Positions 15,382 through 31,152 of a DNA stretch of 64,000 bases are shown piece after piece. The DNA is from Microbacterium sp. AK031 (GTDB lineage: Bacteria; Actinomycetota; Actinomycetes; Actinomycetales; Microbacteriaceae): contig NZ_JANUCA010000010.1 of the NCBI RefSeq assembly GCF_024807145.1, positions 1 through 64,000 on the forward strand, written 5' to 3'. The notes beneath the pieces are model-generated. The model ran no database searches. It saw only the letters and a program-made list of their open reading frames with translations, and was not told the DNA's origin. Positions within the stretch are counted from its first letter, which is position 1; the number at the start of each line of letters is the position of its first letter. Position numbers and translations under genes: made by a program.

Positions 15382-16659
15382 ATGACGACACAGACTGCCA
15401 CTTCACCCGCAGAGGCGCCGACCAAAGCGCCACCGCTGCGGCTGTTCTTCACGATCCTGCATCTGGCCGCACTCGGCGTGCTCGGCGGCGGGATCATCGG
15501 GATCCTGGCCGCCACGTTCGGAACCGGCGTGGTTCTGCTGTTCGTCCTCGGGATCGGACTGCTGTTCCTGGTCGGCTTCGTCTACGCGCTGTTCGGGCTC
15601 GGATGGTTCGAGATCGTGCGTGTGAGAGGGCTGTACGCTCTCGACATCGCCGACCTCCAGCCTCGTCGCCGCCAGCGGCCAGGGTTCGGGGGATGGCTCC
15701 GCTCGCTCGGACGTCAGAGCATCGACGGACGCATGTGGCGTGCAGTGGCGAGCTTCGTCATCGCCTGCATCTTCGGTGCGCTGGTGCTCAGGCTCTTCTG
15801 GGCCCTGGTCTTCTCGGCGATCAGCATCTTCGCGCCGCTCGGCGCCGCCGAGACGGTCTCGATTCCACTCGCCTTCGGCGTCGGCCAAGTTGGCGTCGAG
15901 TGGGCTGTGCTTGCAGGTGTCCTCGGTGCTCTCGCCGCAGCGGCGGGCATCATCGGTCTCGCCCTGCTGCATCGCACCATCTCGTGTGCGCTGGTCGTGC
16001 CCAACCGCGAGGCCGAGCTCACCGAGCAGGTGCGCACCACGAGCGCGCAGCGCGAAGGTGCGGTGCGCGCAGCAGACGTCGAGCGCACGCGCATCGAACG
16101 CGATCTGCACGATGGCGTTCAGCCCCGTCTGGTCTCGGTCGGGATGACTCTGGGCCTCGCGCATCAGAAGATCGATGACGACCCCGCGCAGGCGAAGGAT
16201 CTGATCTCGGAGGCGCACACCTCCACGAAGGCGGCGATCACCGAGCTGCGACAGCTCGCCCGCGGCATCCATGCCTCGGTTCTCGATGATCGCGGACTGG
16301 ATGCTGCGCTTTCAGCCCTTGCCAGCAGGTCGCACATCCCGGTGCATCTCGACGTGCGCATGGACGGTCGCTGCAGCCGCGACGCCGAGGCTGCCGTGTA
16401 CTTCTCGATCGCGGAGTCTCTCACCAATGCCGCCAAGCACTCCCGTGCCAGCGAGTGCCGGGTGATCGTACGACTGCGCGAGGGCGGCGTGCTGTGGGCC
16501 CGTGTCGAAGACAACGGCATGGGCGGTGCGCAGGTGCAGCCGGGTGGCGGACTCGACGGCATCTCGAACCGCGTGCTCGCGGCCGGCGGCACGTTCCGTC
16601 TCGACAGTCCGCAGGGCGGGCCGACATCGCTGGAGGTGAGCGTGCCATGCGCATCCTGA
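15382..16659 (+). CDS. Sensor histidine kinase, NarL/DesK class (HisKA_3)
   Basis: 425-residue membrane kinase. Two pairs of hydrophobic helices are visible (about residues 20-75 and 112-200). The phospho-acceptor motif ERDLHDGVQPRLVSVGM is near residue 239, and the ATPase part includes AAKHSRASEC (N box) and DNGMGGAQVQPGGGLDG (G boxes) near residues 352-395. No extracellular sensor of any size is present, suggesting sensing in or near the membrane. It overlaps its response regulator by 13 bases, and a DUF4097-like protein follows. Confidence 0.9.
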   Translation: MTTQTATSPAEAPTKAPPLRLFFTILHLAALGVLGGGIIGILAATFGTGVVLLFVLGIGLLFLVGFVYALFGLGWFEIVRVRGLYALDIADLQPRRRQRPGFGGWLRSLGRQSIDGRMWRAVASFVIACIFGALVLRLFWALVFSAISIFAPLGAAETVSIPLAFGVGQVGVEWAVLAGVLGALAAAAGIIGLALLHRTISCALVVPNREAELTEQVRTTSAQREGAVRAADVERTRIERDLHDGVQPRLVSVGMTLGLAHQKIDDDPAQAKDLISEAHTSTKAAITELRQLARGIHASVLDDRGLDAALSALASRSHIPVHLDVRMDGRCSRDAEAAVYFSIAESLTNAAKHSRASECRVIVRLREGGVLWARVEDNGMGGAQVQPGGGLDGISNRVLAAGGTFRLDSPQGGPTSLEVSVPCAS

Positions 16660-17372
16660 TCTGTGAAGACTCCGTGCTGCTGCGCGAGGGGCTGGTGCGA
16701 CTGCTCGAAGACTCGGGTCACGAGGTCGTCGCAGCTCTTCCCGACACGGATGGACTCACCGACGCCGTGCGGACGACGGATCCTGAGCTGTGCATCCTCG
16801 ATGTGCGCCTTCCTCCGACATTCACCGACGAGGGCATCCGCGCCGCTCTCGGGCTGCGGAAGACGCATCCGTCGCTCCCCCTCCTCGTGCTGTCGCAGTA
16901 TGTCGAGGAGCGCTATGCCAGCGATCTGATCGCCGCGCAGGGTGGCCCGCTGGGCTATCTGCTGAAGGACCGCGTCGCCGATGTCTCCGAGTTCGTCGCA
17001 TCGGTCGAGCGGATCGCTGAAGGAGCTTCCGTTCTCGATCCCGAGGTCGTCGCGCAGCTGCTCACGCGGCGCAATCGGGATGATCGGATGCTGCAGCTCA
17101 CCGAGCGCGAGCGCACCGTGCTCTCGCTCATCGCTGAGGGCAAATCGAATCAGACGATCGCAGGTCTGCTGTTCCTCTCCGAGGGCAGCGTGGAGAAGTA
17201 CATCACGTCCATCTTCCAAAAGCTCGGCCTCGAACCCGAAGCCGGCAACCGCCGAGTGCTCGCAGCGCTCGCCCACATCGAGAACACCGGCAGCGGCACG
17301 GGTCCGCTCGGAACCCCGCCACCCGGAACCCCGCCATTCGGGAATCAGTCACAGACAGGAGCGGCACGATGA
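16647..17372 (+). CDS. LuxR/NarL-family response regulator
   Basis: 241-residue regulator. The receiver starts MRILICEDSVLLREGL with the acidic pair E8-D9, the phosphorylated Asp in LCILDVRLPP near residue 53, and the conserved Lys in YLLKDR. The LuxR-type helix-turn-helix is LTERERTVLSLIAEGKSNQTIAGLLFLSEGSV at about residues 150-181. The final 40 residues are a Gly/Pro-rich tail with a repeated GTPP pattern. The start lies inside the kinase gene, and the stop overlaps the next start as ATGA, so the three genes form one operon. Confidence 0.93.
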   Translation: MRILICEDSVLLREGLVRLLEDSGHEVVAALPDTDGLTDAVRTTDPELCILDVRLPPTFTDEGIRAALGLRKTHPSLPLLVLSQYVEERYASDLIAAQGGPLGYLLKDRVADVSEFVASVERIAEGASVLDPEVVAQLLTRRNRDDRMLQLTERERTVLSLIAEGKSNQTIAGLLFLSEGSVEKYITSIFQKLGLEPEAGNRRVLAALAHIENTGSGTGPLGTPPPGTPPFGNQSQTGAAR

Positions 17373-18316
17373 ACGCCGAATCACAGAACAACCAGGGTGG
17401 GCACGACGTGCCGCTCAGCCCGCCGCCGGCAGCAGACTCGGGGGCTGCGGCTTCGAGTGCTCCAGCTCAGGGTGCGCCGGCCCCGGGTGCAACGGCACCG
17501 GGACCGGCGGGACCGCGCGGGTCGGGTGCGCGTGCGGGTGCCATCGCGATCGCGGTCTTCGGGGGCGTCGCTCTGCTGGCGACCGGCGGCACGGCGGCGA
17601 TCGCCGCCGTCAATGATGTGACCACGTCGGTCGATGAGTCGCGGCAGCAGATCGATGCCTCCGGCGTCACCGGCATGGATCTGGAACTCGGTGGCGTGAA
17701 CATGCGCGTCGAGTTCGGTGACGTGGAGGACGCACAGCTCGATGTCTCGGGAAGCGGCAACAACCGGTGGGTGCTCACTCGCGATGACGACGAACTCGTC
17801 GTGAACAGCCCCGAGATGAAGTTCGGCTGGTGGTTCGGCGACTGGTTCAACGACGAGCAGCGTGTGGTGTTGACTCTGCCGGAGGAGCTGCGCGGCACAG
17901 GACTCGACGCTGACATCTCGCTCGGCGCCGGGAGCCTGGACGTGGAGGGCGACTTCGGTGAGGTTGATGTCGAGATGGGCGCCGGCGCGCTGTTCATCAC
18001 CGGATCGGCCGAGACGATCGATCTGGACCTGGGGGCGGGTCGCGCGGAACTCGACTTGGCGGACGTGTCGGAGGCCGACTTCACCATCTCGGCGGGGCGG
18101 ATGGTCGCGGAGCTCACAGGGACGGCACCGAGTGAGGTGCGGTTCGATGTGAGTGCCGGATCGCTCGAGCTGACGCTGCCGGATGAGGAGTACAACCTGA
18201 ATCAGGATGTGAGTGCCGGATCGCTCGACAACGGGCTGCAGACCTCGTCGAACGCGCGGAATTCGATCGTGGCCGGCGTCTCTGCAGGCAGTGCGATTCT
18301 GCGGCCAGGGGATTGA
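17369..18316 (+). CDS. Membrane-anchored DUF4097-like beta-repeat protein
   Basis: 315-residue protein. A proline/alanine-rich cytosolic stretch (1-50) leads into one membrane helix (about 51-75) and an outward domain of repeating beta strands with motifs such as SLGAGSLDVEGDFGEVDVEMGAGALFITGSA, as in DUF4097/adhesin-like domains. An exact 23-bp repeat (18146-18168 and 18206-18228) encodes DVSAGSL twice. Proteins of this kind often follow envelope-stress two-component pairs; a role as target or modulator of the upstream system is inference. Confidence 0.75.
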   Translation: MNAESQNNQGGHDVPLSPPPAADSGAAASSAPAQGAPAPGATAPGPAGPRGSGARAGAIAIAVFGGVALLATGGTAAIAAVNDVTTSVDESRQQIDASGVTGMDLELGGVNMRVEFGDVEDAQLDVSGSGNNRWVLTRDDDELVVNSPEMKFGWWFGDWFNDEQRVVLTLPEELRGTGLDADISLGAGSLDVEGDFGEVDVEMGAGALFITGSAETIDLDLGAGRAELDLADVSEADFTISAGRMVAELTGTAPSEVRFDVSAGSLELTLPDEEYNLNQDVSAGSLDNGLQTSSNARNSIVAGVSAGSAILRPGD

Positions 18317-18369
18317 CCGGCTCCGATTCGGATTTTCCGTCGATCTCCGGTAAAGTCTTGGAGGTTGAC

Positions 18370-18443
18370 GGGGCTATAGCTCAGTTGGTTAGAGCGCTTC
18401 ACTGATAATGAAGAGGTCCCAGGTTCAAATCCTGGTAGCCCCA
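18370..18443 (+). tRNA. tRNA-Ile (GAT)
   Basis: 74-nt cloverleaf with acceptor GGGGCTA/TAGCCCC, D-loop AGCTCAGTTGGTTAGAGC, anticodon GAT in CTGATAA, and T-loop GGTTCAAATCC. No CCA is encoded. It is followed 27 bases later by tRNA-Ala. Confidence 0.97.
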
Positions 18444-18470
18444 CTTTTCACCTCAACTAAACACCCTCGC

Positions 18471-18543
18471 GGGGCCTTAGCTCAGTTGGTAGAGCGCCTG
18501 CTTTGCAAGCAGGATGTCAGGAGTTCGAATCTCCTAGGCTCCA
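18471..18543 (+). tRNA. tRNA-Ala (TGC)
   Basis: 73-nt cloverleaf with acceptor GGGGCCT/AGGCTCC (one G-U pair), anticodon TGC in TTTGCAA, and T-loop AGTTCGAATCT. CCA is not encoded. The Ile-Ala pair occurs in rRNA spacers of many bacteria, but no rRNA is found here. Confidence 0.97.
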
Positions 18544-18551
18544 CAGAAACA

Positions 18552-18581
18552 AGAAGCGCCGCCCACAAGGGCGGCGCTTCT
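18552..18581 (+). terminator. Terminator of the tRNA-Ile/Ala transcript
   Basis: Perfect 13-bp stem AGAAGCGCCGCCC / GGGCGGCGCTTCT with loop ACAA, 8 bases after tRNA-Ala. It also faces the convergent LysR gene. Confidence 0.85.
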
Positions 18582-18629
18582 CCCGTTGATCAAGCTGACC
18601 AATTCGAGCCGGTCCCGCTCGCCACCGCA

Positions 18630-19553
18630 TCAGCTCGCGTGGAGGTGTGTCTCGGCTGGCGCGCCGAGATCCGAGAGCAACTCGAGCAGGTGCGTCGAGG
18701 GTGCCGCGATGTGATCATGCGCGGCAGAGACGGCCGATACCTTCCATGACAGACCCGCGGTCTGAGGGAGCGCGACCATGCGCAGACCGACCGCCTGCGG
18801 CTTGGCCGCGACGTGGCGGGGCACGATCGCGACGCCCAGGCCGCGGGTGACGAGGTCCAGAAGTGTGTGCACGTCGTTGACGGTGCACCGCACCCGCCGG
18901 TGGATGCCGTGCGCTGCGAGGATATCGTCGTTCAACTCGCGGATGCCCCATGTGCCGGTGAACTCAATGAAATCTTCACCTTCGAGCGCGTGCCAGGCGA
19001 TCTCCGGGCGCAGGTCGGCGCGTGCAGCGATCGGGTGGTCAGGGGCCGCTAGCAGGACGAGCGGCTCCTCGCCTAGGATTCGGTTCGGCAGTGCGCCGAG
19101 GTGCTTGGTCGCCGCCACGAATGCCACGTCGATCTCACCTGCCCGCGTCAGCGCGACGAGCTCCTGCGAGCCGGCTTGCGTGAAGTGAGTCTCGACGCGC
19201 GGGTGGCGCCGGTGGAAGCGCTCAAGGAGATCTGCCACGTCGACGAAGCCCAGGCATTGTTCGGCGCCGATGCGGAGGAAGCCTGTCACCTCCTGGCTCG
19301 CCTTGATCACTGCATCGCGCGCCTGCGTGGCATTTGCCAGCATCTGCCGCGCATAAGGCAGCAGCGCCAAGCCCGCTTCGGTCAGCTCCACGCGGCGCGT
19401 CGTACGATCGAACAGCGGGGTGCCCAGTTCCTGTTCGAGGTTGCGAATCGCTGAGGAGAGGCCGGACTGCGAGATGCCCGCGAGCTCGGCCGCGCGGGTG
19501 AAGTGGCGTTCCTCGGCGACTGCGAGGAGGTACTCCATCTGACGCAGATCCAT
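18630..19553 (-). CDS. LysR-family transcriptional regulator
   Basis: 307-residue LTTR. The winged helix-turn-helix is at residues 1-60 (MDLRQMEYLLAVAEERHFTRAAELAGISQSGLSSAIRNLEQELG), with the usual LFDRTTRRVELTEAG just after. The rest is the periplasmic-binding-like effector domain. It is divergent from two aldo-keto reductase genes, which it probably controls; effector unknown. Confidence 0.93.
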   Translation of the reverse strand: MDLRQMEYLLAVAEERHFTRAAELAGISQSGLSSAIRNLEQELGTPLFDRTTRRVELTEAGLALLPYARQMLANATQARDAVIKASQEVTGFLRIGAEQCLGFVDVADLLERFHRRHPRVETHFTQAGSQELVALTRAGEIDVAFVAATKHLGALPNRILGEEPLVLLAAPDHPIAARADLRPEIAWHALEGEDFIEFTGTWGIRELNDDILAAHGIHRRVRCTVNDVHTLLDLVTRGLGVAIVPRHVAAKPQAVGLRMVALPQTAGLSWKVSAVSAAHDHIAAPSTHLLELLSDLGAPAETHLHAS

Positions 19554-19566
19554 TCACACCTCCTGC

Positions 19567-19581
19567 TTCTGAATTTCAGAA
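19567..19581. promoter_or_regulatory. Probable LysR operator
   Basis: The perfect odd palindrome TTCTGAATTTCAGAA sits 14 bases before the LysR start codon and contains the T-N11-A core expected for LTTR binding. It lies in the shared promoter region of lysR and the aldo-keto reductase genes. Confidence 0.6.
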
Positions 19582-19672
19582 CTATCAACTGTTGGACTTC
19601 TAGATTAGCCAATCCTAGGGTGAAGGAGTGGCGCCGAACGGAGTCACCGCAACTCTACGAAGGAGCTCACGA

Positions 19673-20530
19673 ATGCTGCAGCGCACCATCGGTGACCGAT
19701 CCGTGTCGGCGATCGGCCTCGGCGGCATGCCGATGTCGATCGAGGGGCGACCTGAAGTCGATCGCTCGATCGCCACCATCCACGCCGCCCTCGATGCCGG
19801 CGTCACACTCATCGACACCGCGGACGCGTACCACGTGGGCGCGGACGAGGTCGGCCACAACGAGGAGCTCATCGGTCGCGCCCTGCGCGAGTACGGCTCA
19901 GGCGCGGCCGACGTACTCGTCGCCACCAAGGGAGGTCATTTTCGTCCTGGCGACGGCACCTGGATGCGCAACGGCGACCCGGACTATCTCAAGCGCGCCG
20001 CAAAGGAATCCGCGCGCCGCCTCGGCCTCGACGCCATCGGTCTGTACCAGTTACACCGCCCGGATCCTCAGGTGCCCTATGCGGACTCGGTGGGCGCGAT
20101 CCGGGATCTGCTCGATGAGGGCGTGATCTTGATGGGCGGTATCTCCAACGCCGACGTCGCCCAGATCGACGAGGCCCGCGACGTTCTCGGCGGGCGTCTG
20201 GTGTCCGTCCAGAATCAGTTCTCTCCTGCTTTCCGCTCCAGCCAGGGCGAGCTCGAGCACTGCGCCGAGCTCGGCATCGCGTTTCTGCCGTGGAGTCCGC
20301 TCGGAGGCATAAAGTCGGCGAAGGACCTCGCAGACCGCCACGGCGCGTTCCAGGAGGTGGCGGATGAGTTGGACACGAGCGTCCACCAAGTCGCGCTCGC
20401 GTGGGAACTCGCTCTCGCTCCTATTGTGATTCCTATACCCGGCGCCTCGCGCCCCGAGAGCATCCGTGACTCCGCAGCGGCGACGGATCTGACGCTCACC
20501 ATCGAGCAGGTCGCTCGCTTGTCCGCCTGA
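19673..20530 (+). CDS. Aldo/keto reductase (first of a pair)
   Basis: 285-residue TIM-barrel NADPH-dependent oxidoreductase. The catalytic tetrad is visible as Asp and Tyr in DTADAYHVG, Lys in VATKGGHF and His in YQLHRPD; the cofactor-binding end is IPIPGASRPESIRD near residue 258. The ATG is preceded by AAGGAGC at good spacing; an upstream GTG at 19628 is less likely. Substrate unknown. It lies divergent from lysR and 47 bases before a second family member. Confidence 0.92.
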   Translation: MLQRTIGDRSVSAIGLGGMPMSIEGRPEVDRSIATIHAALDAGVTLIDTADAYHVGADEVGHNEELIGRALREYGSGAADVLVATKGGHFRPGDGTWMRNGDPDYLKRAAKESARRLGLDAIGLYQLHRPDPQVPYADSVGAIRDLLDEGVILMGGISNADVAQIDEARDVLGGRLVSVQNQFSPAFRSSQGELEHCAELGIAFLPWSPLGGIKSAKDLADRHGAFQEVADELDTSVHQVALAWELALAPIVIPIPGASRPESIRDSAAATDLTLTIEQVARLSA

Positions 20531-20577
20531 CCCGTATCCTCGGCTTCATTCACCCCCCGACCTAACGAAAGCGACCC

Positions 20578-21510
20578 ATGAAGACCTTCACCCTTCCCCA
20601 CACCGATCTGGTGGTGCCCAACGTCGTCCTGGGCCTGATGCGCATCCAGGACAAGACCGACGAGGAAGTGCGCACGCTCGTGAGCACCGCGCGTGATGCC
20701 GGTATCACCTTCCTCGACCATGCGGACGTGTACGGTTCAAGCAAGCACGGCTGCGAGCGTCGTTTTTCCGAGGCACTGCGGCTCACGTCCTCCGAGCGCG
20801 AGCAGTTCGTGATCCAGTCGAAAGCCGGTATCGTGCGCGAAGGCCCGTACTTCGACTTCTCGTACGAGCACATCATCGAGTCCGTGGACGGCTCGCTCGA
20901 GGCGCTCGGTACTGACTACCTCGACATCCTGCTCCTGCACCGTCCCGACGCGCTCGTGGAACCGGAAGAGGTGGCCCGGGCGTTCGACGATCTATCGGCC
21001 TCCGGCAAGGTACGTGCCTTCGGCGTCTCGAACCAGACGCCTCGCCAGATCGATCTGCTGCGCAAGTACGTCACGCAACCGATCGTCGCCAACCAGCTTC
21101 AGCTGTCGATCACGCACGCGCCGATGATCGCGCAAGGCGTGTCGGCCAACATGCAGCACCTGGATCAGTCCGTCGTGCGCGACGACGGAATCATCGACTA
21201 CTGCCGTCTGAATGACATCACGATCCAGGCGTGGTCGCCGTTCCAGGCCGGCTTCTTCGACGGACCCTTCGTCGGTTCGGACCGCTACCCCGAGCTGAAC
21301 GCAGTGCTCGACCGCCTCGCCGACGAATACGGCGTCGCGCCAGAGGCCATCGCGGTGGCCTGGATCACCCGGCACCCCGCACGGATGCAGGTCGTGCTCG
21401 GGACCACGACCCCAGAACGCGTCGCGGCAGCGGCCCAGGGCTCGGAGATTTCGCTCACTCGCGCCGAGTGGTACGAACTGTTCCGCGCAGCCGGCTACCT
21501 CGTACCGTGA
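20578..21510 (+). CDS. Aldo/keto reductase, YdhF-like (second of a pair)
   Basis: 310-residue aldo/keto reductase. The tetrad appears as LDHADVYGS, IQSKAGI and LLLHRPD; GVSNQT and the C-terminal VVLGTTTPERV segments are typical. The sequence is closer to the YdhF type of oxidoreductase than to its neighbour, so the pair is not a recent tandem duplication. It shares the LysR-controlled region and probably the transcript with the preceding gene; a terminator follows 100 bases later. Confidence 0.92.
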   Translation: MKTFTLPHTDLVVPNVVLGLMRIQDKTDEEVRTLVSTARDAGITFLDHADVYGSSKHGCERRFSEALRLTSSEREQFVIQSKAGIVREGPYFDFSYEHIIESVDGSLEALGTDYLDILLLHRPDALVEPEEVARAFDDLSASGKVRAFGVSNQTPRQIDLLRKYVTQPIVANQLQLSITHAPMIAQGVSANMQHLDQSVVRDDGIIDYCRLNDITIQAWSPFQAGFFDGPFVGSDRYPELNAVLDRLADEYGVAPEAIAVAWITRHPARMQVVLGTTTPERVAAAAQGSEISLTRAEWYELFRAAGYLVP

Positions 21511-21610
21511 TGTGAGTGCGGAACACGGCTGGCGGCTCTGGAGGCGTACCGCGACTGAGTAGCCGTTGCAGGATTCCGGCCGACGCGGTCGGACGACGCA
21601 CAGGATGCAG

Positions 21611-21646
21611 CACGAGAAGCCCCGGCGTCGACCGGGGCTCTCTCGT
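21611..21646 (+). terminator. Terminator after the aldo/keto reductase pair
   Basis: Hairpin with arms CACGAGAAGCCCCGG and CCGGGGCTCTCTCGTG (one asymmetric base) around a CGTCGA loop. Confidence 0.75.
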
Positions 21647-21667
21647 GTTCCGACGTAGGATCGAAGG

Positions 21668-21943
21668 GTGCTGATCGGTCTGATGCGTCCCGTGGAAACC
21701 CGTTCCGTCGACGTCGAGGCCGCAGACCTTGCCGGCGTCCAGACGCAACTGGCCACGCAACGCCCGGAGGGCTTCGACCTCGTCTCCGCCCCGGTCGTGA
21801 TGATCAAGGGTGCAGCGATCCTCAAGGCCAAAGGAACCTTCCAGAGCCGCGACCGCATCGAGCAGATCGAGGCAGACGACATGGACGCCCTGCACGCCAA
21901 GGTGCCAGAGGGCTGGCAGCTCCTCAGCGTTCGCGCCACCTGA
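21668..21943 (+). CDS. Small conserved-looking protein of unknown function
   Basis: 91 residues from a GTG, or 86 from the in-frame ATG at 21683. The composition is soluble, with no membrane segment or signal peptide. High G/C third-position use supports coding. The repeated alternation of hydrophobic and charged residues (GFDLVSAPVVMIKG, GWQLLSVRAT) suggests an alpha/beta fold. It stands alone between a terminator and the convergent DAHP synthase gene. I do not recognise the family. Confidence 0.65.
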   Translation: MLIGLMRPVETRSVDVEAADLAGVQTQLATQRPEGFDLVSAPVVMIKGAAILKAKGTFQSRDRIEQIEADDMDALHAKVPEGWQLLSVRAT

Positions 21944-22044
21944 CGCGCCCAGCATCCTTCTACTCGAGCTCGATGGGAGATTCTCGCACGCTCACGGCGC
22001 TCGAAACGTGCGAAAACCTCCCGTCGACGCCGCGCTCGGCTCGC

Positions 22045-23115
22045 TCACGCGCGGCGTCGACGCACGCCGTCCGCGAGCTGCGCGAGGGCTGCCTCCGTGG
22101 CATCCCACCCCATGCAGGCATCCGTCACGCTCTGCCCGTAAGTGAGCCGGGTGCGGCCGGCCGAGACATCCAGTTTCTGCGCACCCGCGACGAGGTTGCT
22201 CTCCAGCATCACACCGGCGATCGCCGTACCATCCGTCGCGATCTGCGAACCCAGCTCTGCCGCCACCGCAGCCTGGCGCACGTGATCCTTGCCGCTGTTG
22301 CCGTGGCTCGCGTCGACGACCACGCGTGGCGCGAGCATTGCCGCATCCAGTCGGCGAGCTGCCTCCGCCACGTGAATGGCGTCGTAGTTCGGGCCGTCGG
22401 TGCCGCCGCGCAGGATCACACCCGTGTCGGGATTGCCCGTGGTCGCCACCAGACTCGCGCGACCATCCGACCCGATGCCGAGGAACGCCTGCGGGGCGGA
22501 TGCTGCAGCCGCGGCATCCAGCGCCACCTGAAGCCCGCCGTCCATGCCGTTCTTGAAGCCGATCGGCATCGACAGGCCGGAGGCCAGCTGCCGGTGGATC
22601 TGGCTCTCCGTGGTCCGCGCGCCGATCGCGCCCCACGTGATGAGGTCGGCGGTGTACTGCGGGCTGATCGGCTCGAGGAACTCCGTGGCACACGGCATCC
22701 CGAGCGCGGTGACATCGCGCAGGAAACCGCGTGCGAGGCGCAGCCCTTCTTCGATGTCGTGGCTGCCGTCGAGGTGGGGATCGTTGATCAGACCCTTCCA
22801 GCCGATGGTGGTGCGCGGCTTCTCGAAGTACGTGCGCATCACGATCAGCAGGTCGTCCCGATGCTGCTCGGCCTCCCGCACCAGTCGTCCGGCGTACTCG
22901 AGTCCTGCAGCGGGGTCGTGGATCGAGCAAGGGCCGGCTATGACGAGCAGTCGGTCGTCCTCACCAGACATGATCGCGCGCACCTCGTCGCGCGTGCGCG
23001 AGACCAGCGCCGAGCGCTCCTCTCCGACCGGCAGCTCGGCGGCGATGTCGCCGGGGGCGGGAAGAGTCGTGAACTGCGAGACGTGCAGATCGGCTGTCGC
23101 ATCGAGAGTGTTCAT
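22045..23115 (-). CDS. aroF: 3-deoxy-7-phosphoheptulonate (DAHP) synthase, type I
   Basis: 356-residue enzyme that joins phosphoenolpyruvate and erythrose 4-phosphate, the first step of the shikimate pathway. Type I alpha (AroF/G/H) features are plain: IAGPCSIHD near residue 60, RTYFEKPRTTIGWKGLINDP near 93, GSDGRAS and VDASHGNSGKDH for the metal-binding histidine. The aroF/aroG choice of symbol is by analogy only. It is preceded by a leader peptide rich in aromatic residues and a hairpin, so expression probably responds to charged tRNAs for Trp, Tyr and Phe. Confidence 0.95.
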   Translation of the reverse strand: MNTLDATADLHVSQFTTLPAPGDIAAELPVGEERSALVSRTRDEVRAIMSGEDDRLLVIAGPCSIHDPAAGLEYAGRLVREAEQHRDDLLIVMRTYFEKPRTTIGWKGLINDPHLDGSHDIEEGLRLARGFLRDVTALGMPCATEFLEPISPQYTADLITWGAIGARTTESQIHRQLASGLSMPIGFKNGMDGGLQVALDAAAAASAPQAFLGIGSDGRASLVATTGNPDTGVILRGGTDGPNYDAIHVAEAARRLDAAMLAPRVVVDASHGNSGKDHVRQAAVAAELGSQIATDGTAIAGVMLESNLVAGAQKLDVSAGRTRLTYGQSVTDACMGWDATEAALAQLADGVRRRRA

Positions 23116-23173
23116 TGGTCCTGTCCTGTAGTCAGGCGGACCCGGGATGCAGAGCCCGCCGATGAAACGGCGA

Positions 23174-23270
23174 AAGCCAGAGCAAATGCTCTGGCTTGTC
23201 GGCTCTGAAGGTGTCGGTATGCGCTAGATCAGCGCCGGCCCCTCCAGAGCCGACTCGAAATACGCATACC
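23174..23270 (-). promoter_or_regulatory. Transcription attenuator of the DAHP synthase gene
   Basis: On the transcript a perfect 10-bp hairpin AAGCCAGAGC / GCTCTGGCTT with loop ATTT (23174-23197) lies 27 bases after the leader stop and 58 bases before aroF. Two further pairings compete around the leader: GGTATGCG (23263-23270) with CGCATACC (23216-23223), and GTCGGCTCT (23246-23254 strand-reversed) with AGAGCCGAC (23198-23206). The leader segment GGCTCTGG can also pair with the CCAGAGC arm of the terminator. Mutually exclusive folds are the hallmark of ribosome-mediated attenuation; the exact switch was not modelled. Confidence 0.75.
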
Positions 23271-23283
23271 AACGGGTTGTCAT
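23224..23283 (-). CDS. Aromatic leader peptide of DAHP synthase
   Basis: A 19-residue open frame MTTRWYAYFESALEGPALI ends in TAG and lies 108 bases upstream of aroF. Trp5, Tyr6, Tyr8 and Phe9 place codons for all three aromatic amino acids within five positions, which is hard to explain by chance before a DAHP synthase. A TAGTGT box lies 7 bases before the ATG, so the message may be leaderless. A comparable arrangement is known for aroR-aroF of Corynebacterium glutamicum (phenylalanine attenuation); this peptide reads Trp and Tyr as well. Confidence 0.85.
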   Translation of the reverse strand: MTTRWYAYFESALEGPALI

Positions 23284-23319
23284 GCGAAAGACACTACCCC
23301 ATGTCGGTGCGTGCTCGGT

Positions 23320-23401
23320 CCGAATCCCAGACGATCGACCTCCGCAGCGGCGCGGCGCAGTGGTGACGCACCGTCCGAATGCGTGACCGTCTGGGATTCG
23401 G
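23320..23401. repeat. Perfect 14-bp inverted repeat with 54-base spacer
   Basis: Arms CCGAATCCCAGACG (23320-23333) and CGTCTGGGATTCGG (23388-23401) are exact complements. They flank the presumed promoter region of the leader/aroF transcript, just past the end of ectD. It may be a paired operator or a long-loop terminator for the ectoine operon. Confidence 0.75.
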
Positions 23402-23413
23402 CACCACCGCCGG

Positions 23414-24310
23414 TCAGCCCAGCGGCGTGAAGTCGCGGTTCGCGATGTGCGTCGGACGCGGTGACTTCGCCGCGAACGGATCGACGAGCGCGTTCTCGAC
23501 GCTGTTGAACACCATGAACACGTTCGAGCGGGCGTACGGGGTGATGTTGTTGCCCGATCCGTGCATGATGTTCGAGTCGAACCACAGCGCAGACCCGGCA
23601 GCGCCGGTGAACTGGTCGATGCCGTACTTGTCCGCCAGCGCCGTGATGGCCGCGTGACTCGGCACGCCGGCTTCCTGCGCCTGCAGCGACTGCTCGTGAT
23701 TGTTGTCGGGCGTCTCGCCCACCGCCGGCACAAAAGTGCGGTGCGAGCCCGGCATCACCATGAGTCCGCCGTTGAACGGATAGTTGTCGGTCAGCGCGAT
23801 CGACAGGCTCACCGACCGCGGGATCGGCATACCGTCCTCCGCGTGCCAGGTCTCGAAGTCCGAGTGCCAGTAGAACCCGGTGCCGGTGAAGCTCGGCATG
23901 TAGTTGATCCGCGTCTGGTGAAGGTACACCTCCGACCCGACGATCTGCCGCGCCCGGTCGAGCACCTTCGGGTCGCGGGCGAGGGCGTGGAGCACCGAGC
24001 TCAGCTTCTCGACCTCGAAGACCGAGCGCGCGGTGCCGGTCGTGCGCTCGGTGATGAGCCGATCGTCGCCTTGCAGTGCGGTGTCGGATGCGAGTCGGTC
24101 GAGCTCACCGGAGTACAGCGCGACGTCATCGGCCGAGATGAAGTCCTCGAGGATCGTGAACCCGCGCTGCTCGTGTGCCTGCAGTTCTGCCTCGGAGAAG
24201 GGGCCGTCGTCGGCCGATCCCCACACCGCAGGCTGGGTCCGGGTGATGAAGTCGGAGGGCTGCGTCAGCCGGGTCGGGAACAGGTCCTCTGCGGTGGTCG
24301 TGGTGGTCAT
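23414..24310 (-). CDS. ectD: Ectoine hydroxylase
   Basis: 298-residue Fe(II)/2-oxoglutarate dioxygenase that hydroxylates ectoine to 5-hydroxyectoine. The EctD signature FYWHSDFETWHAEDGMP holds the H-x-D iron ligands; the third ligand is in NIMHGSGNN. Length is normal. The ATG at 24310 opens MTTTTTAEDLFPTRL; the frame continues upstream into the tandem repeat region but that is not coding by composition. It is the last gene of ectABCD, separated from ectC by 85 bases containing short tandem repeats. Confidence 0.96.
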   Translation of the reverse strand: MTTTTTAEDLFPTRLTQPSDFITRTQPAVWGSADDGPFSEAELQAHEQRGFTILEDFISADDVALYSGELDRLASDTALQGDDRLITERTTGTARSVFEVEKLSSVLHALARDPKVLDRARQIVGSEVYLHQTRINYMPSFTGTGFYWHSDFETWHAEDGMPIPRSVSLSIALTDNYPFNGGLMVMPGSHRTFVPAVGETPDNNHEQSLQAQEAGVPSHAAITALADKYGIDQFTGAAGSALWFDSNIMHGSGNNITPYARSNVFMVFNSVENALVDPFAAKSPRPTHIANRDFTPLG

Positions 24311-24329
24311 GCGTCGTTCTCCTGTCTCG

Positions 24330-24384
24330 TGCGGAATTTGCGGAATTTGCGGATGTGCGGATGCTGCGGATGTGCGGATGCTGC
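24330..24384. repeat. Short 8-9 base tandem repeat between ectC and ectD
   Basis: On the plus strand the run reads as units GCGGAATTT twice, then GCGGATGT and GCGGATGCT alternating twice. Such an array is prone to slippage and varies the ectC-ectD distance. Confidence 0.8.
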
Positions 24385-24395
24385 GCACGTACCGG

Positions 24396-24788
24396 TCACG
24401 CGTCTTCGGTGACCAGCGGATAGACGCCGTTCTCGTCATGCACCTCTCGGCCGGTGACGGGCGGGTTGAACACGCACACGACACGCATCTCGGTGCGCGG
24501 CCGCACCTCGTGCTTGTCGTGGTCGTTCAGCAGGTACAGCGAGCCGGGGGAGAGCTGGTGCGTCTCGCCCGTGCCGAGATCGGTGATCTCTCCCTCACCG
24601 GCCACGACGAACACGGCCTCGATGTGGTTCGCGTACCAGAAGCGGCTCACCGTGCCGGCGTAGAGGGTGGTCTCGTGCACCGAGAAGCCCACCTTCTCCT
24701 TCGCGAGCACGATGCGCTTGCTGCGCCAGTTCTCGGTCTTGATGTCGGCGTCGGTGTCGGTGATCTCGTCGAGGGTGCGGACGATCAT
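24396..24788 (-). CDS. ectC: L-ectoine synthase
   Basis: 130-residue cupin enzyme that cyclises N-gamma-acetyl-diaminobutyrate to ectoine. It begins [20 protein letters not shown], a conserved EctC opening, and has the cupin motifs [18 protein letters not shown] and [14 protein letters not shown]. Its start overlaps the ectB stop by 4 bases (ATGA). Length is typical. Confidence 0.97.
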
Positions 24789-26125
24789 GCGGGGGTGTGC
24801 TCCTTGCTCTCTGCGTTGTGGTCGGCGCGACCTGCGTCTTGGTGGACCGTGTGATCCGCAGCGTGCGGGTCCGGCTCGCCGAGCACGGCGCGGATGGACT
24901 CGTCGATGATCCGCAGTCCACGCTCGAGCTCGATGTCGGTGATGGTCAGGGCGGGGAGGATCTTCATGACCTCGCCCTCGGGACCGGACGTCTCCATGAG
25001 CAGGCCGCGTTCGAATGCTGCCTGGCACACGGCATCCGCCAGCTCGCCGGAGGGGAACTGCAGACCGCGTGCGAGTCCGCGGCCCTTGGCGATGAGCTCA
25101 TGCTGCGGATAGCGGGCGACGAACGTGTTGAACCATCCCTCGACCCGTGCGCCCTTCGTGATCGTCGAGTCGCGCAGTTCGTCATCCGACCAGTAGCGAC
25201 GGATGGCCGCTGCGGCCGTCGCGAATGCCGGGCTGATCCCGCGGAACGTGCCGTTGTGCTCCCCCGGCTGCCAGACGTCGAGTTCGGGCTTGATCAGGGT
25301 CAGCGCCATCGGGATGCCGTAGCCGGAGATCGACTTCGACAGGCAGACGATGTCGGGCACGATTCCGGCCTCTTCGAAGCTGAAGAAGTCGCCCGTACGA
25401 CCGCAGCCCATCTGGATGTCGTCGACGATCAGCAGGATCTCGTGCTGCTTGCAGAGGGCCGCGAGCTGACGCAGCCATTCGGCGCGCGCCGCATTGATGC
25501 CGCCCTCGCCCTGAACCGTCTCCACGATCACCGCCGCCGGGATGTTGAGTCCGCTGCCGGAGTCTTCCAGCAACCGCTCGAAGTAGAAGAAGTCGGGGTA
25601 GTCGCCATCGAAGTAGTCGTCGTACGGCATGGGGGTCGCGTGTACGAGCGGAATGCCTGCGCCGCCGCGCTTGAGCGAGTTGCCGGTGACGGAGAGCGCG
25701 CCGAGGGTCATGCCGTGGAAGGCGTTGGTGAAGTTGACCACGGATTCGCGTCCGGTCACCTTGCGCGCCAGCTTCAAGGCCGCCTCTACGGCGTTCGCAC
25801 CGCCGGGGCCGGGGAAGACGACCTTGTAGTCCAGGTCGCGGGGCTTCAGGATCACCTCGTTGAAGGTCTCGAGGAAATCGCGCCTTGCGGAGGTGAACAT
25901 GTCGAGCGAGTGCACGATGCGATCATCGGCCAGGTAGTCGAGCAGCACGCGCTTGAGCTCGGGGTTGTTGTGCCCGTAGTTCAGCGCACCGGCTCCGGTG
26001 AAGAAGTCCAGGTACTCCTTGCCGTCTTCGTCGTACATCGCGCTGCCCACGGCACGATCGAACACGACGGGCCATGCGCGGGAGTAGCTGCGGACTTCGG
26101 ATTCCAGCTGCGTGAAGATATTCAT
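24785..26125 (-). CDS. ectB: Diaminobutyrate--2-oxoglutarate transaminase
   Basis: 446-residue class III PLP aminotransferase that makes L-2,4-diaminobutyrate from aspartate semialdehyde. The PLP-binding lysine is in [10 protein letters not shown] and the aspartate in [36 protein letters not shown] and [15 protein letters not shown] are typical of EctB. The last 25 residues are a histidine- and charge-rich tail, longer than usual. It lies 72 bases after ectA and is coupled to ectC. Confidence 0.97.
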
Positions 26126-26197
26126 TGAGTGGTGGTTCTCCTCCTTGATAGATCACGTGCGGGGAGTGCACGCCGCCCCGGGTGGGCGGATGGACGG

Positions 26198-26820
26198 CTA
26201 CATCGGGGGTCCGATCTCGTACAGCCGTTCGGGTTCGTGGTGCGCGGTATCCGACGAGTGGGTCAGATGCGCGCTCTCGAAGAGCGGGGTGACGACCATG
26301 GGCGCATCGTCCCAGCGACGGGCGAGACTGCGGAAGGTCTGCTGCGAGGCGAGATTGTCGTCGGTGATGGTGGTCTGCAGCGTGTGCACCGGTGGGGCGA
26401 TCGCCTTGTCGTGGAGCAGATCGTCCAGCATCCGGCCGGCGAGACCGAGCCCGCGGAAGCGCTCGTCGACAGCGACCTGCCAGATGAACAGGCAGGACGG
26501 ATCCTCAGGACGCCGGTAGCCGATCACGAAGCCGGCCGGTGAGCCATCGACCAGCGCGATGCGGCAGGTCGAGGCGAAGTCGCGGGCGTAGAGGACGTAC
26601 GCGTACGAGGAGTTCAGATCGAGCGTTCGTGAGTCGCGGGCGATGCGCCACAGCTCGATTCCCTCATCGATGCGAGGCGGCCGAATCAGGCTCGTTCCAC
26701 CCGACCGCGCATCGGTATGCGTGGCCTGTGCTGACGTGCTCGGCCCGTGAGAGCCGGGGGAAGTCAGAGCGTGTCACCGTCCCGGATCGGGGTGTGCAGC
26801 TCGCAAGAATTGGTGTCCAT
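26198..26820 (-). CDS. ectA: Diaminobutyrate acetyltransferase, reading frame broken near the 5' end
   Basis: A GNAT enzyme that acetylates diaminobutyrate. The unbroken frame gives LIRPPRIDEGIELWRIARD, then LDLNSSYAYVLYARDFAST, the CoA-binding VAVDERFRGLGLAGRML and a normal C-terminus at 26198. That frame contains no ATG, GTG or TTG start upstream of a GTG at 26527 (which would delete the N-terminal half) before a stop at 26774-26776. A good start with GGAG upstream lies at 26820 and encodes MDTNSCELHTPIRDGDTL in another frame; one missing base near 26764-26776 would join the two. A CTG start near 26689 is the alternative. Confidence 0.8.
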
Positions 26821-26945
26821 GAGGTGTGATCTCCACTGGTGAAACAGCTTCGGCCCGTCTTCCACTCTGTCATGCACCGTGTGCGACCTCAAATCCGTGT
26901 CGACGTGACCGACCCGGCCAGGATGCCCTGTGGGATGCTGGGCGC

Positions 26946-28070
26946 ATGAGCCTTCCGCACGCCGATGTCGACCCAGATGGCCTCCTGGAATACTCGGTGG
27001 TCTTCACCGATCGATCCCTCAACCACTTGTCTGCGCGCTTCATCTCGGTGCTGCAGCAGACCTTCGAGATCCTCGGCGATGCGTACAACGCGCACACGGT
27101 GGCTATCGTCCCCGGCGGCGGCACCTACGCGATGGAGGCCGTCGCGCGCCAGCTCGCGACCGGTCGCCGCACCCTCGTCGTGCGGAACGGACTGTTCTCC
27201 TACCGGTGGTCGCAGATCCTCGAGACCGGCGGCATCAGTGACGATGTCACGGTGCTCGCCGCCCGACCGGACTCCGACGGCGTGCGGGCGTCCTGGGCGC
27301 CCGCCCCGATCGACGAGGTTGTGGCTGCGATTCGCGCTCGCCGCCCCGAAGTGGTTTTCGCTCCGCACGTCGAGACCGCTGCCGGAATGATCCTCCCCGA
27401 TGATTACGTGCGCGCCTTGGCAGACGCCGTGCACGAGGTCGGCGGGCTGCTCGTGCTGGACTGCATCGCCTCCGGCGCCATGTGGATCGACATGAAGTCC
27501 CTCGGCGTGGACGTGCTGCTCAGCGCACCGCAGAAGGGATGGAGTGGGTCGCCCTGCGCCGGTTTCGTCATGCTCAGCGAGGCGGGCGAGGATGCTGTGC
27601 GCTCCCATGTATCGACGAGCTTCGCCGCCGACCTAGGCAAATGGCTGGCCATCGCCGACGAGTACCGGGTCGGCCGCGCGGCGTATCACGCGACCATGCC
27701 CACCGACTCGCTGACCTACAACCTCGCCGCGATGATCGAGACCCGCGACCGCGGTTTCGAGCCGCTGCGTGCTGCGCAGCTCGAACTGGGTCGGCGGGTG
27801 CGTGAGCTTCTGGCCGAACGCGGATTGCCGTCGGTCGCGGCATCCGCGTATGCCGCTCCCGGAGTCGTCGTCGTGCACACGGATGATCCTGCAATGAAGT
27901 CGGGTGCGGCCTTCAAGGAGCAGGGGCTGCAGATCGCCGCCGGCGTGCCGCTGCACTGCGATGAGCCGGAAGGGTTCTCGACCTTCCGGCTCGGACTGTT
28001 CGGCCTCGACAAGCTCGCCGATATCGATGGAACGGTGTCGCGCCTCGCTGCGGCCCTGGACGCGATCTGA
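26946..28070 (+). CDS. Class V aminotransferase (alanine/serine-glyoxylate type)
   Basis: 374-residue PLP enzyme of the alanine-glyoxylate and serine-glyoxylate aminotransferase group. The PLP-binding lysine is in LLSAPQKGWSGSP near residue 199, with VLDCIASGAMWID providing the aspartate. VPGGGTYAMEAVARQL is typical. It is divergent from ectA. The donor and acceptor cannot be named from sequence alone. ATG chosen; GGGATGCTGGG lies upstream. Confidence 0.85.
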   Translation: MSLPHADVDPDGLLEYSVVFTDRSLNHLSARFISVLQQTFEILGDAYNAHTVAIVPGGGTYAMEAVARQLATGRRTLVVRNGLFSYRWSQILETGGISDDVTVLAARPDSDGVRASWAPAPIDEVVAAIRARRPEVVFAPHVETAAGMILPDDYVRALADAVHEVGGLLVLDCIASGAMWIDMKSLGVDVLLSAPQKGWSGSPCAGFVMLSEAGEDAVRSHVSTSFAADLGKWLAIADEYRVGRAAYHATMPTDSLTYNLAAMIETRDRGFEPLRAAQLELGRRVRELLAERGLPSVAASAYAAPGVVVVHTDDPAMKSGAAFKEQGLQIAAGVPLHCDEPEGFSTFRLGLFGLDKLADIDGTVSRLAAALDAI

Positions 28071-28130
28071 CGCTCGTACGATTGCCCAGGCGACGTGACG
28101 ACGTGGTCACGACTGTAGTCCTCAGGTTTG

Positions 28131-28146
28131 GTTAGGGTATCCTTAT
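28131..28146. promoter_or_regulatory. Candidate iron box (DtxR/IdeR type)
   Basis: GTTAGGGTATCCTTAT, with half-sites TTAGG and CCTTA, is close to the DtxR/IdeR consensus and lies 56 bases before the start of an iron-type ABC transporter operon. Two or three bases deviate from the palindrome. Confidence 0.5.
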
Positions 28147-28201
28147 CCCTTGTGTCTGAAGCCCCGTGACCGCGGGGCGGTGAAGCGACACCAGGAGATC
28201 C

Positions 28202-29251
28202 GTGATCACTTCCATGCGCGCACTGTCGGCGACGGTCGCCACCGCAATCGTCCTCGTGGGTGTCACCGGCTGCGGCGCCTCCGAAGTGATCGCTTCGCAA
28301 CCCGAGGCGGCGAGTGGCGACGGACGCACCGCATATCCGCTGACGGTGGAGAACTGCGGCGTCGAGGTCACAGTCGAGGCCGCACCCGCCCGCGTGGTGT
28401 CGCTGGATCAGAACTCCACCGAGATCCTTCTCTCGCTCGGACTCGAGGATCGCCTCGTCGGCACCGCGTCATGGACGGATCTGGTGCTCGATTCCCTCGC
28501 CGCGGCGAATGAGGACGTACTGCGTCTCGCCGACAACGCACCGAGCTACGAGGTGCTCCTCGGGACGGATCCGGACTTCGTCACCGCGTCATTCGGACGC
28601 CACTACAACGACGGGGGCGTCGTGACCCGCGGCCGGCTGGAGGAGACCGGCGTCGGCTCGTACCTCTCGCCGACGGATTGCGATAACGGCCAGAGTGTCA
28701 ACGGCGGCGGAACCAGGACGACCGCGCTGACTGTCGATGCGCTCTACCAGGAGATCCGCGAACTCGCGGAGATCTTCGATGTTGCCGACCGTGGCGAGCA
28801 GCTGATCGCCGAGCTGCAGACGCGCGCGAAGGCCGCGACGGAGGGTGTCGACTTCGAGGGGCGGAGCGTCATGTTCTGGTTCGCCGATACGAAGACCCCG
28901 TACGTCGCCGGCGGACTGGGCGCGGCATCCCTGCTCGCATCGATGACGGGCATGACGAACGCGTTCGCCGACGCGAGCGACGACTGGCCGGCCGTCGGCT
29001 GGGAGAGCGTGGTCAGCGATTCTCCCGACATCATCGTCCTCGGCGACCTGCAACGTGACCGATTCCCCGGCGACCGACTGGATGAGAAGATCGACTTCCT
29101 CCAGCAGGACGCGCTCGTGAGCAGCCTCGACGCCGTTCAGAACGACCGCTTCATCGCGCTGCACGGTGCCGAGATGAATCCATCCATCCGCTTCGTCGAC
29201 GGTCTGGAGAAGATCCAGGCATGGTGGACCGCGAACAGGGCAGTCCTCTGA
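28202..29251 (+). CDS. ABC transporter substrate-binding lipoprotein (siderophore/heme family)
   Basis: 349-residue FecB/FepB-like binding protein. The signal peptide is about residues 1-23, with lipobox GVTGC placing a lipidated cysteine near residue 24. The class III binding domain starts PARVVSLDQNSTEILLSLGLEDRLVG and ends in GLEKIQAWW. GTG start with CAGGAG. It leads a three-gene operon with a FecCD permease and ATPase and has an iron box upstream. Ferric siderophore is the likeliest ligand; corrinoid or heme cannot be excluded. Confidence 0.88.
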   Translation: MITSMRALSATVATAIVLVGVTGCGASEVIASQPEAASGDGRTAYPLTVENCGVEVTVEAAPARVVSLDQNSTEILLSLGLEDRLVGTASWTDLVLDSLAAANEDVLRLADNAPSYEVLLGTDPDFVTASFGRHYNDGGVVTRGRLEETGVGSYLSPTDCDNGQSVNGGGTRTTALTVDALYQEIRELAEIFDVADRGEQLIAELQTRAKAATEGVDFEGRSVMFWFADTKTPYVAGGLGAASLLASMTGMTNAFADASDDWPAVGWESVVSDSPDIIVLGDLQRDRFPGDRLDEKIDFLQQDALVSSLDAVQNDRFIALHGAEMNPSIRFVDGLEKIQAWWTANRAVL

Positions 29252-30315
29252 TCGCGCTGCCGTCGCTCGCCGCGGTTTCGGACACCCGGCGGCTATGGTC
29301 GCGTCGCACACTGGCGATCGCGCTCGTCCTCGGCGGTCTCGTCGCCGTGGTCCTGTCCGTCGGCGTGGCCGTGACCCTGGGGCCGGCCGATGTGTCCCTC
29401 GTGAACGTCCGGGACATCCTCCTCAATCATCTCGGTCTGGCCGAGATCCCCGTGCGGGTCTCGGATGACGCCATCGTGTGGCAGGAGCGACTGCCTCGCG
29501 CGCTTGTCGCGGCGGCCTGTGGAGCGGGGCTCGGGTTGTGCGGAGCGATCCTGCAGTCACTCCTGCGCAACCCGCTCGCCGATCCGTTCGTGCTCGGTGT
29601 CTCATCCGGAGCATCGACGGGCGCCGTCGCGATCGGTGTGCTGGGCATCGGTGGAAGTGCGGTCGGGCTCTCCGGTGGTGCGTTCATCGGTGCTCTCGTC
29701 GCCTTCGGTCTCGTCCTCCTGCTGGCGCGCTTCACGAGCGCCGGCACCGCCGGCGTCATCCTCGCCGGTGTGGCGAGCACCCAGTTGTTCTCCGCACTCA
29801 CGTCGCTCGTCGTGTTCGCCTTCGCCGACTCCGACGAGACACGTGGAGTGATGTTCTGGCTACTCGGCTCCCTCGAAGGCATGCGGTGGGACGATGTCGG
29901 ACTCAGCACTGTGGTCGTCGGCATCGGCGCCGTCATCTGCCTGGCCTCCGCCCGCGCGCTGGACGCCTTCGCCTTCGGCGAGGATGTCGCGGCGTCTCTC
30001 GGCATCCATGTGGCGCGCACGCGCATCCTGCTGCTGATCCTCACCGCCCTGCTCACGGCCACGCTGGTGAGCATCGCCGGAGCCATCGGGTTCGTGGGTC
30101 TCGTCCTCCCCCATGCGGCACGGCTGCTGTTCGGTCAGCGTCATTCCCGGGTGATCCCGGCGACCATCATCCTCGGTGCGGTCTTCATGGTGTGGGTGGA
30201 TGCCGGCTCACGGGTCGCCTTCGCTCCCACGCCGCTGCCGGTCGGCGTGGGGACGGCTCTCGTTGGCGTTCCGGTCTTCGTGCTGTTGCTGCTGCGCAGA
30301 AGGAGACGCGCATGA
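29221..30315 (+). CDS. FecCD-family ABC transporter permease
   Basis: 364-residue membrane permease of the iron/cobalamin (BtuC/FecCD) family. About nine to ten membrane helices are visible. The motif RLPRALVAAACGAGLGLCGAILQSLLRNPLADPFVLGVSSGA is the family hallmark, and IGFVGLVLPHAARLL is the ATPase-contact region. The start overlaps the binding-protein gene by 31 bases, and the stop overlaps the ATPase as ATGA. Confidence 0.93.
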   Translation: MVDREQGSPLIALPSLAAVSDTRRLWSRRTLAIALVLGGLVAVVLSVGVAVTLGPADVSLVNVRDILLNHLGLAEIPVRVSDDAIVWQERLPRALVAAACGAGLGLCGAILQSLLRNPLADPFVLGVSSGASTGAVAIGVLGIGGSAVGLSGGAFIGALVAFGLVLLLARFTSAGTAGVILAGVASTQLFSALTSLVVFAFADSDETRGVMFWLLGSLEGMRWDDVGLSTVVVGIGAVICLASARALDAFAFGEDVAASLGIHVARTRILLLILTALLTATLVSIAGAIGFVGLVLPHAARLLFGQRHSRVIPATIILGAVFMVWVDAGSRVAFAPTPLPVGVGTALVGVPVFVLLLLRRRRRA

Positions 30316-31112: not shown

Positions 31113-31152
31113 GCACATCGACCCCGGCGGTACCGGTGCGATCGACGGGACG

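Follow-up and report, generated by a model that had tools for sequence, protein, structure and literature searches.

A leaderless-type peptide reading Trp, Tyr and Phe as a putative attenuator of the DAHP synthase gene aroF in Microbacterium and other actinobacteria

The synthesis of all aromatic amino acids begins with DAHP synthase. The locus described here, from Microbacterium sp. AK031, raises the question of how a gene for this enzyme may follow the supply of three end products at once. An earlier note on this DNA, made from its letters alone, had proposed that one short leader peptide does so by attenuation. We followed up this proposal in the window (the whole stretch of 64,000 nucleotides that was analysed, contig NZ_JANUCA010000010.1) and in related genomes, and we consider it likely that the leader is an attenuator of aroF that senses the charged tRNAs for all three aromatic amino acids. 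Within the literature that we searched, leader control of DAHP synthase in actinobacteria is in print for Corynebacterium glutamicum only. A leader for three amino acids, spread over many families and lacking a match in Rfam, would account for three end products sharing one point of feedback. With the element one could also readily test whether tRNA sensing is tuned by rare codons ending in U, and it would be a control point to remove or exploit in strains that produce aromatics.

The leader frame and its promoter box

The aroF gene (22045-23115, ATG at 23115) lies on the minus strand, like all of the leader features described below. Its ORF encodes 356 residues and matches TIGR00034 with 461 bits, against a cut-off of 173, i.e., it is a type I DAHP synthase. 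The 19-codon frame announced 5' of aroF is present on the minus strand, which the earlier note had not given: MTTRWYAYFESALEGPALI runs from the ATG at 23283 to a TAG (23224-23283) and is kept in relatives. It contains the putative regulatory codons UGG UAU GCG UAU UUC (W-Y-A-Y-F, 23257-23271), recognised by sequence and codon counts. That this is a chance ORF was rejected, the leader being conserved across relatives. The same genome encodes a type II DAHP synthase on another contig. The region upstream of that gene has no such leader; the sole boxed ORF there is an unrelated 33-residue frame with two nearby Tyr. An ectoine cluster is encoded directly 5' of aroF on the same strand (23414-26527, minus), with Pfam matches to PhyH (EctD-like), Ectoine_synth (EctC), Aminotran_3 (EctB-like) and GNAT (EctA-like). 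An EctD homologue was also seen in L002, L014, L023 and L026, and many other loci had short flanks.

A TAGTGT sequence (23291-23296), the -10-type box of a putative leaderless promoter, stands precisely 7 nt 5' of the leader ATG, as had been described. The leaderless-type start proposed on this basis is consistent with the relatives, where a TANNNT box occurs at a similar distance. It was found 6-8 nt 5' of the start in 97 of 97 leaders, versus 3 of the 1315 remaining start codons of these regions, a count that is partly circular because alternative leader starts were picked with the box as a bonus, and that was made after 17 chance ORFs had been taken out by hand with the box visible (in three of these, L050, L056 and L057, a box preceded the start by 4, 9 and 6 nt). 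A less circular set is given by the leaders found via the RNA model (see below), in which the box stood at 6-7 nt in 19 of 19 cases.

Distribution and codon content of the leader

We found type I aroF in 21 of the 119 Microbacterium genomes by protein search, including the genome of the window. A covariance model of the leader RNA, built from 32 leaders, gave matches with E < 1e-12 in exactly these 21 genomes; the other matches listed in them fall at the same site (opposite strand or fragments). Seven Microbacterium genomes without aroF had one weak match each (E 0.0018 to 0.084). The leader was present at all 22 aroF loci of the 21 genomes. The gene is therefore patchy in the genus and the leader always accompanies it, which suggests that gene and leader are gained or lost as one unit. 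Among 299 genomes of the family, the model matched the window's own genome, one genome of the same genus and 19 further sites on the sense strand (E up to 7e-4). All of these 19 stand 5' of aroF, with a leader reading RWYAY or a close variant (FWYVY, FWYAY, RWYTY, RWYAN). Five weaker family matches (L202-L206, E 0.0017 to 0.086) had no aroF in the locus and were treated as chance.

The class sample contained type I aroF in 78 of 394 genomes, and a related leader was recognised by rule before the gene in 52 of these 78. Most of the 26 genomes without it (23) belong to a single family, f24, of which they make up all 23, and one of the three others has masked sequence. Several f24 loci (e.g., L111, L128, L143, L147) carry just 5' of aroF an ORF ending in [FY]WEED[LF]PGLK, which presumably resembles the C-terminal end of an acyl-CoA ligase. 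The leader peptides of the class sample vary (AYWRFIEAPGGA, RRYPYFAQAPGGA, RWYWRFTQAPGGA, YFWFSRPAPGGS, QYWFTAPARDGSA, YRWFRQPA), and each consists of an aromatic cluster followed by a small GC-rich stretch. In family f11 we found the leader at all 23 loci read, which were hand-picked, at about one per genus, from 211 aroF-bearing genomes. Four of them (L222-L225), which we take for Corynebacterium from their peptide type, carry WRFYF, WRFYF, RQYYP and RFYF. A named collection (80 loci kept of 209 found) had the leader at 38 loci, all actinobacterial. The 42 loci without it come from other phyla, except for L038, the sole actinobacterial one, which has only 101 nt of upstream sequence. The leader is more general than first claimed. 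Loss of the W-Y-x-Y-F codons or hairpins in close relatives had been named as an observation that would speak against attenuation; both are kept in relatives.

This comparison bears out the suggestion that one peptide may read all three aromatic amino acids, since W, Y and F codons all occur within 15 residues in 113 of 139 leaders. Counted over 97 non-identical leaders, W, Y and F occur in the first 15 residues in 75, while 18 lack W and 4 lack F, the count of F being slightly generous since the sole F of L019, L194, L196 and L198 precedes W. The leaders without Trp, 14 of which are of the RRYPYF type of family f27, and those without Phe count against the sensing of three amino acids. All three residues were also present in 17 of the 19 family matches (hand count) and in 21 of the 23 f11 loci. 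The Tyr and Phe codons of the 97 leaders (UAU 142, UAC 8, UUU 73, UUC 29) are the reverse of those in the aroF stretches of the same loci (UAU 4, UAC 299, UUU 6, UUC 458), although the leader counts are not independent because of shared descent. The window leader itself uses UAU, UAU and UUC. We read the bias towards UAU and UUU as selection for slow decoding; pairing of the aromatic codons with a downstream segment (1a:1b, see below) may contribute to it.

Helices between the leader and aroF

The leader RNA folds 7.2 standard deviations below dinucleotide shuffles (z -7.2). Rfam gave no match to the leader at the gathering score, nor at E up to 1 in 23050-23400. The perfect 10-bp hairpin described between the leader ORF and aroF was found at 23174-23197 with the loop AUUU (helix 3:4), followed by the tail UCGCCGUUUC (23164-23173). 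The two extra complementary pairs also exist. In helix 1:2 (14 bp), segment 1 (23241-23254), within the leader ORF and 3' of the aromatic codons, pairs with segment 2 (23198-23211). The other pair, 1a:1b, joins segment 1a (23263-23273), which contains the Arg-Trp-Tyr-Ala codons, and segment 1b (23213-23223), right after the stop codon.

We studied covariation in an alignment of 32 Microbacterium-type sequences (A3) and in one of 69 sequences aligned to the model (A5), which left out 13 of 82 sources with weak or no matches. In A5, 97.9% of cells pair and both partners change in 24 of 30 pairs, compared with 11.4 in shuffles; this signal vanishes when the partners are slid, and A5, being aligned to the model's own structure, favours 1:2, 3:4 and the downstream helix 6:7. 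Changes on both sides were found in 8 of the 14 pairs of 1:2, in all nine modelled pairs of 3:4 and in all seven of 6:7. The check for covarying stems in relatives suggested by the earlier note was thus positive for these three helices. A3 alone had such changes in one pair of 1:2 and in none of 6:7 or of a further helix, 2:6. One part of 1:2 is coding sequence, so that changes in the leader go along with changes in the untranslated segment 2. When partners were swapped between loci, the own partner in 1:2 beat 95% of the others in 42 of 97 loci. The 23 f11 loci had a 1:2 on average just 1.28 standard deviations better than shuffles, which counts against the attenuator reading. The four Corynebacterium-like loci have 1:2 and 3:4 recognisable by eye, with duplex z-scores of only -0.4 to -2.5. 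The pair 1a:1b was supported across clades, where 88 of 97 loci had an own partner above the average of the swapped ones (and 25 had one above 95% of them), but it is weakly conserved in the Microbacterium set, with 88.7% of A3 cells paired against 88.0% in shuffles, i.e., not clearly above. The RNA model also scored the opposite strand of 1:2 at many loci (23198-23254, plus strand in the window; E ~6e-6 to 0.01), because this helix is so palindromic.

Helix 3:4 looks like an intrinsic terminator. The fraction of U was 0.48 in the 10 nt after its stem and 0.12 further on, and was higher after the stem in 103 of the 103 loci examined, a count that covers the loci with a 3:4 hairpin and whose fraction is raised somewhat by passing back over any U at the end of the stem. 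Ten loci have no 3:4 (Pseudonocardia, YFWF type, L172). A simple terminator scan of 15000-34000 gave four matches, the window's 3:4 not among them. The sole long-stemmed match of that scan is a 14-pair terminator-like hairpin with a U-containing tail (18551-18582, minus), close to a tRNA-Ile/tRNA-Ala pair at 18370-18544.

Further helices connect this region to the aroF start. Segment 6 (GGCGGGCUCUG, 23150-23160) is common to a small hairpin 5:6 (CGCCG...CGGCG, 23157-23172; 97.5% of A3 cells paired, four of five pairs invariant), to helix 2:6, formed with the part 23207-23201 of segment 2, and to helix 6:7. Segment 7 (GGUCCGCC, 23135-23142) can pair with segment 6 or with the aroF ribosome-binding region, where GGACC (23117-23121), adjoining the aroF start, is complementary to it according to segment energies. 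Helices 6:7 and 7:8 are about equally strong over 33 loci of the Microbacterium clade (-15.6 and -13.9 kcal/mol). By eye, the complement of segment 7 near the aroF start is broken in L029, L041, L042, L063, L103 and L104. In L016 and L021 the leader is interrupted between 3:4 and segment 6 by an insertion that carries a GGGGCGAAGCCCCG hairpin and repeats the GCCGUUU element.

Helix 2:6 is mutually exclusive with 1:2 and encloses hairpin 3:4; in the ten loci without 3:4 it is a direct hairpin. First tests of 2:6 had badly bounded segments (L163 was absent from them and from the derived counts) and were replaced by a test on 113 loci, without L192 and L199. In this test 2:6 surpassed 95% of its shuffled versions at 81 of the 113 loci, whereas a control region in aroF did so at 4. 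Partners taken from other clades gave a mean below the own partner in 103 loci, but the own partner ranked above 95% of them in no more than 25. The duplex joins, e.g., CCUUCAGaGCC to GGCcCUGAAGG in Paeniglutamicibacter (L044) and GAGCCAAC to GUUGGCUC in L183. Support is uneven: the shuffles were beaten in 7 of 20 loci of the RRYPYF/RWYWRF peptide group and in 2 of 8 of a mixed group, and two of the four Corynebacterium-like loci (L222, L224) seem by eye to have no segment 6. Helix 2:6 cannot covary within the 32 Microbacterium-type sequences because it is nearly invariant there, and its individual pairs could not be counted on A5, where segment 6 is not alignable. The earlier note had spoken of overlapping attenuator hairpins. 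In the classical sense this is not supported, since 1:2 directly adjoins 3:4 but shares no arm with it and no antiterminator segment was found; the actual overlap, absent from that note, is between 1:2 and the downstream 2:6.

From ribosome position to aroF

We found no upstream antiterminator against 3:4 in 86 loci, with a test that worked on E. coli trpL. It followed the pairing of arm 3 before arm 4 exists. In the Microbacterium clade this pairing reached 0.38 when the ribosome stalled at the first aromatic codon, 0.52 when none was present, and 0.53 and 0.38 in two versions of one placed at the stop codon. The corresponding values for E. coli trpL were 0.69 on stalling versus 0.46 without a ribosome and 0.46 and 0.27 at the stop codon. 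A classical antiterminator was rejected, as stalling brings no capture of the arm. We had set aside an earlier readout, the probability of 3:4 at the point of termination, to which E. coli trpL responded no better.

The reading that we prefer starts with a leaderless mRNA that, judging from the -10 box, would begin at the leader ATG. The ribosome would read W-Y-A-Y-F, where Tyr and Phe are mainly encoded by triplets that such genes seldom use. When a charged tRNA is short, it would stall just 5' of segment 1 and helix 1:2 would form; when all are plentiful, it would reach the stop codon, between segments 1 and 2, and hinder 1:2. Segment 2 would then be free, and 2:6 would close around 3:4. We assign 1:2 to the ON state and 2:6 to the OFF state because synthesis should rise on shortage. 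Hairpin 3:4 would terminate part of the transcripts, and the choice between 1:2 and 2:6 would act at least partly on the translation of aroF. With the usual ribosome footprint, a ribosome halted at W5 would end ~5 nt short of segment 1 and one at Y6 ~2 nt short, whereas at Y8 and F9 it would cover ~5 and ~8 nt of the segment. Helix 1:2 could then form beside a ribosome that waits for Trp or the first Tyr, if not for the others. At Phe, which comes last, the ribosome would hide roughly half of segment 1, which counts against the attenuator reading.

We compared the access to the aroF ribosome-binding region in models of the two states (without L021, where no aroF start was found). Of 112 loci, 69 had an opening cost for this region that was >1 kcal/mol higher in the OFF than in the ON model, and 14 had a lower one; where 3:4 is missing (ten loci), OFF was costlier rather than cheaper by 8 to 1. 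The mean difference was 1.85 kcal/mol, with the same sign in all six clades, and became -0.38 when the downstream part was shuffled and 0.89 when segment 1 was. In the Microbacterium clade the gain was not lost by shuffling segment 1 (1.27 versus 1.12 in the real sequences). In the clade without 3:4, helix 2:6 mostly stays formed in the ON model (7.4 bp on average), therefore the gain there does not come from an exchange of 1:2 and 2:6. The mean unpairedness of the region hardly differs (ON 0.44 versus OFF 0.43) and has no consistent sign. A home-made co-transcriptional folding of four loci was dropped; the difference in unpairedness was 0.06 in three of them and there was none in L044, where 1:2 did not form. 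The opening energies lend weak support to a translational readout. Translational control of aroF is plausible from these models, and so is termination at 3:4 from its hairpin and tail.

A purely transcriptional attenuation of the trp type, in which 3:4 is the terminator, stalling prevents it, and 2:6 and 6:7 are incidental, is a serious candidate, if still short of probable. It is in line with 3:4 and its U-enriched tail in all 103 loci examined, among which a Corynebacterium-like one (L224) has an openly U-rich tail, UUUUUCUUUUG, and with the description of C. glutamicum aroR-aroF as transcription attenuation in the excerpted text of PMC11802643. Yet no segment captures the terminator arm on stalling, unlike in E. 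coli trpL, and ten loci have no 3:4 altogether. The cost of opening in the OFF model, in these ten loci as well, speaks for a purely translational attenuation, where the ribosome would set 1:2 or 2:6, the choice would be relayed via 6:7 to the aroF ribosome-binding region, and 3:4 would be a pause or spacer hairpin. The conservation of 2:6 and 6:7 and the similar strength of 6:7 and 7:8 in the Microbacterium clade also speak for it, but the unchanged mean unpairedness, the complements broken in several relatives and the U-rich tails, which argue for termination at 3:4, make it rather unlikely in this pure form. The preferred reading combines elements of both. In the most far-reaching reading, a leaderless ORF spread over many actinobacterial families would sense the shortage of any of three aminoacyl-tRNAs via rare codons, and the position of the ribosome would select exclusive helices (1:2 or 2:6, then 6:7) rather than a classical antiterminator. 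This chain would enclose the terminator and reach the aroF ribosome-binding region, so that entry into the shikimate pathway would be set by the combined charging of aromatic tRNAs, at translation or at both levels, and the AroR leader of C. glutamicum would be a branch that lost the Trp input. Taken as a whole, this account is possible, if less than probable.

Two further explanations can be considered. The peptide or the attenuated RNA might act in trans, like peTrpL of Sinorhizobium, a reported precedent, and the peptide is indeed conserved beyond its aromatic codons (SALEGPA, APGGA). However, the part 3' of these codons is segment 1, which changes with segment 2, and the helix persists despite other residues and another frame in L019, L146 and L196 (RWYAY and then GSGGA-type ends), which makes such an action very unlikely. 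A metabolite riboswitch or T-box would fit with a strong conserved structure 5' of a biosynthetic gene, but given the conservation of ORF, start, box and codons and the lack of an Rfam match, we find a leader that is not translated barely credible.

Comparison with known leaders

The attenuator that we propose resembles enterobacterial trpL and pheL in having codons for the end product in the leader and in that the position of the ribosome would choose between RNA helices. It differs by its three amino acids, its leaderless-type start and, in place of an antiterminator sharing the terminator arm, an alternative helix that encloses the terminator. Compared with trp-type attenuators, it has the leader ORF with end-product codons and, as far as its sequence tells, an intrinsic terminator before the gene, and no antiterminator was found in it. 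It appears to work like a leader-peptide attenuator that departs from the trp type in this element, as tested here.

Other leaders are related in part. The uORFC-13-1 motif 5' of Acholeplasma aroF is likewise an upstream ORF before aroF with a terminator; the excerpted description (PMC8632094) gives it at least one Phe codon and its own ribosome-binding site, and sets it apart from the window leader, as does its other phylum. Leaderless leaders of Streptomyces and Corynebacterium (leuL, trpL, ilvL) have a TAnnnT box, the -10 box in S. lividans, and some of them have no typical terminator (PMC8079986, PMC5784534). In the excerpted lists, none of the eight leader peptides of S. lividans (PMC8079986) or the three of C. 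diphtheriae (trp, ilvB and leu; PMC5784534) precedes a DAHP synthase gene. A comparison of actinobacterial amino-acid leaders from 2005 reported, as excerpted, that conserved RNA structures were not seen at Phe and Tyr operons (PMC1262725). Six peptide fragments of the leaders had no match in the literature searched, which also contained no report of an aroF leader outside corynebacteria; Neshat 2014 and Wolf 2017 might list one.

The closest system is AroR of C. glutamicum, which in the excerpted accounts precedes aroF and contains Phe-Tyr-Phe codons (PMC11802643; also PMC7356990, PMC4046766). Transcription of aroF there rises on Phe limitation, and Tyr is without effect (PMC11802643, excerpt). 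Both are short leaders with adjacent aromatic codons 5' of aroF, linked to attenuation, and the window leader stands directly 5' of a type I aroF. They differ in that AroR, as excerpted, has Phe-Tyr-Phe where the window leader has W-Y-A-Y-F, and in that the latter and most of its relatives add Trp. Since Corynebacterium-like relatives carry WRFYF and RFYF, AroR looks like one branch of this group, and the leader of the window is probably related to it.
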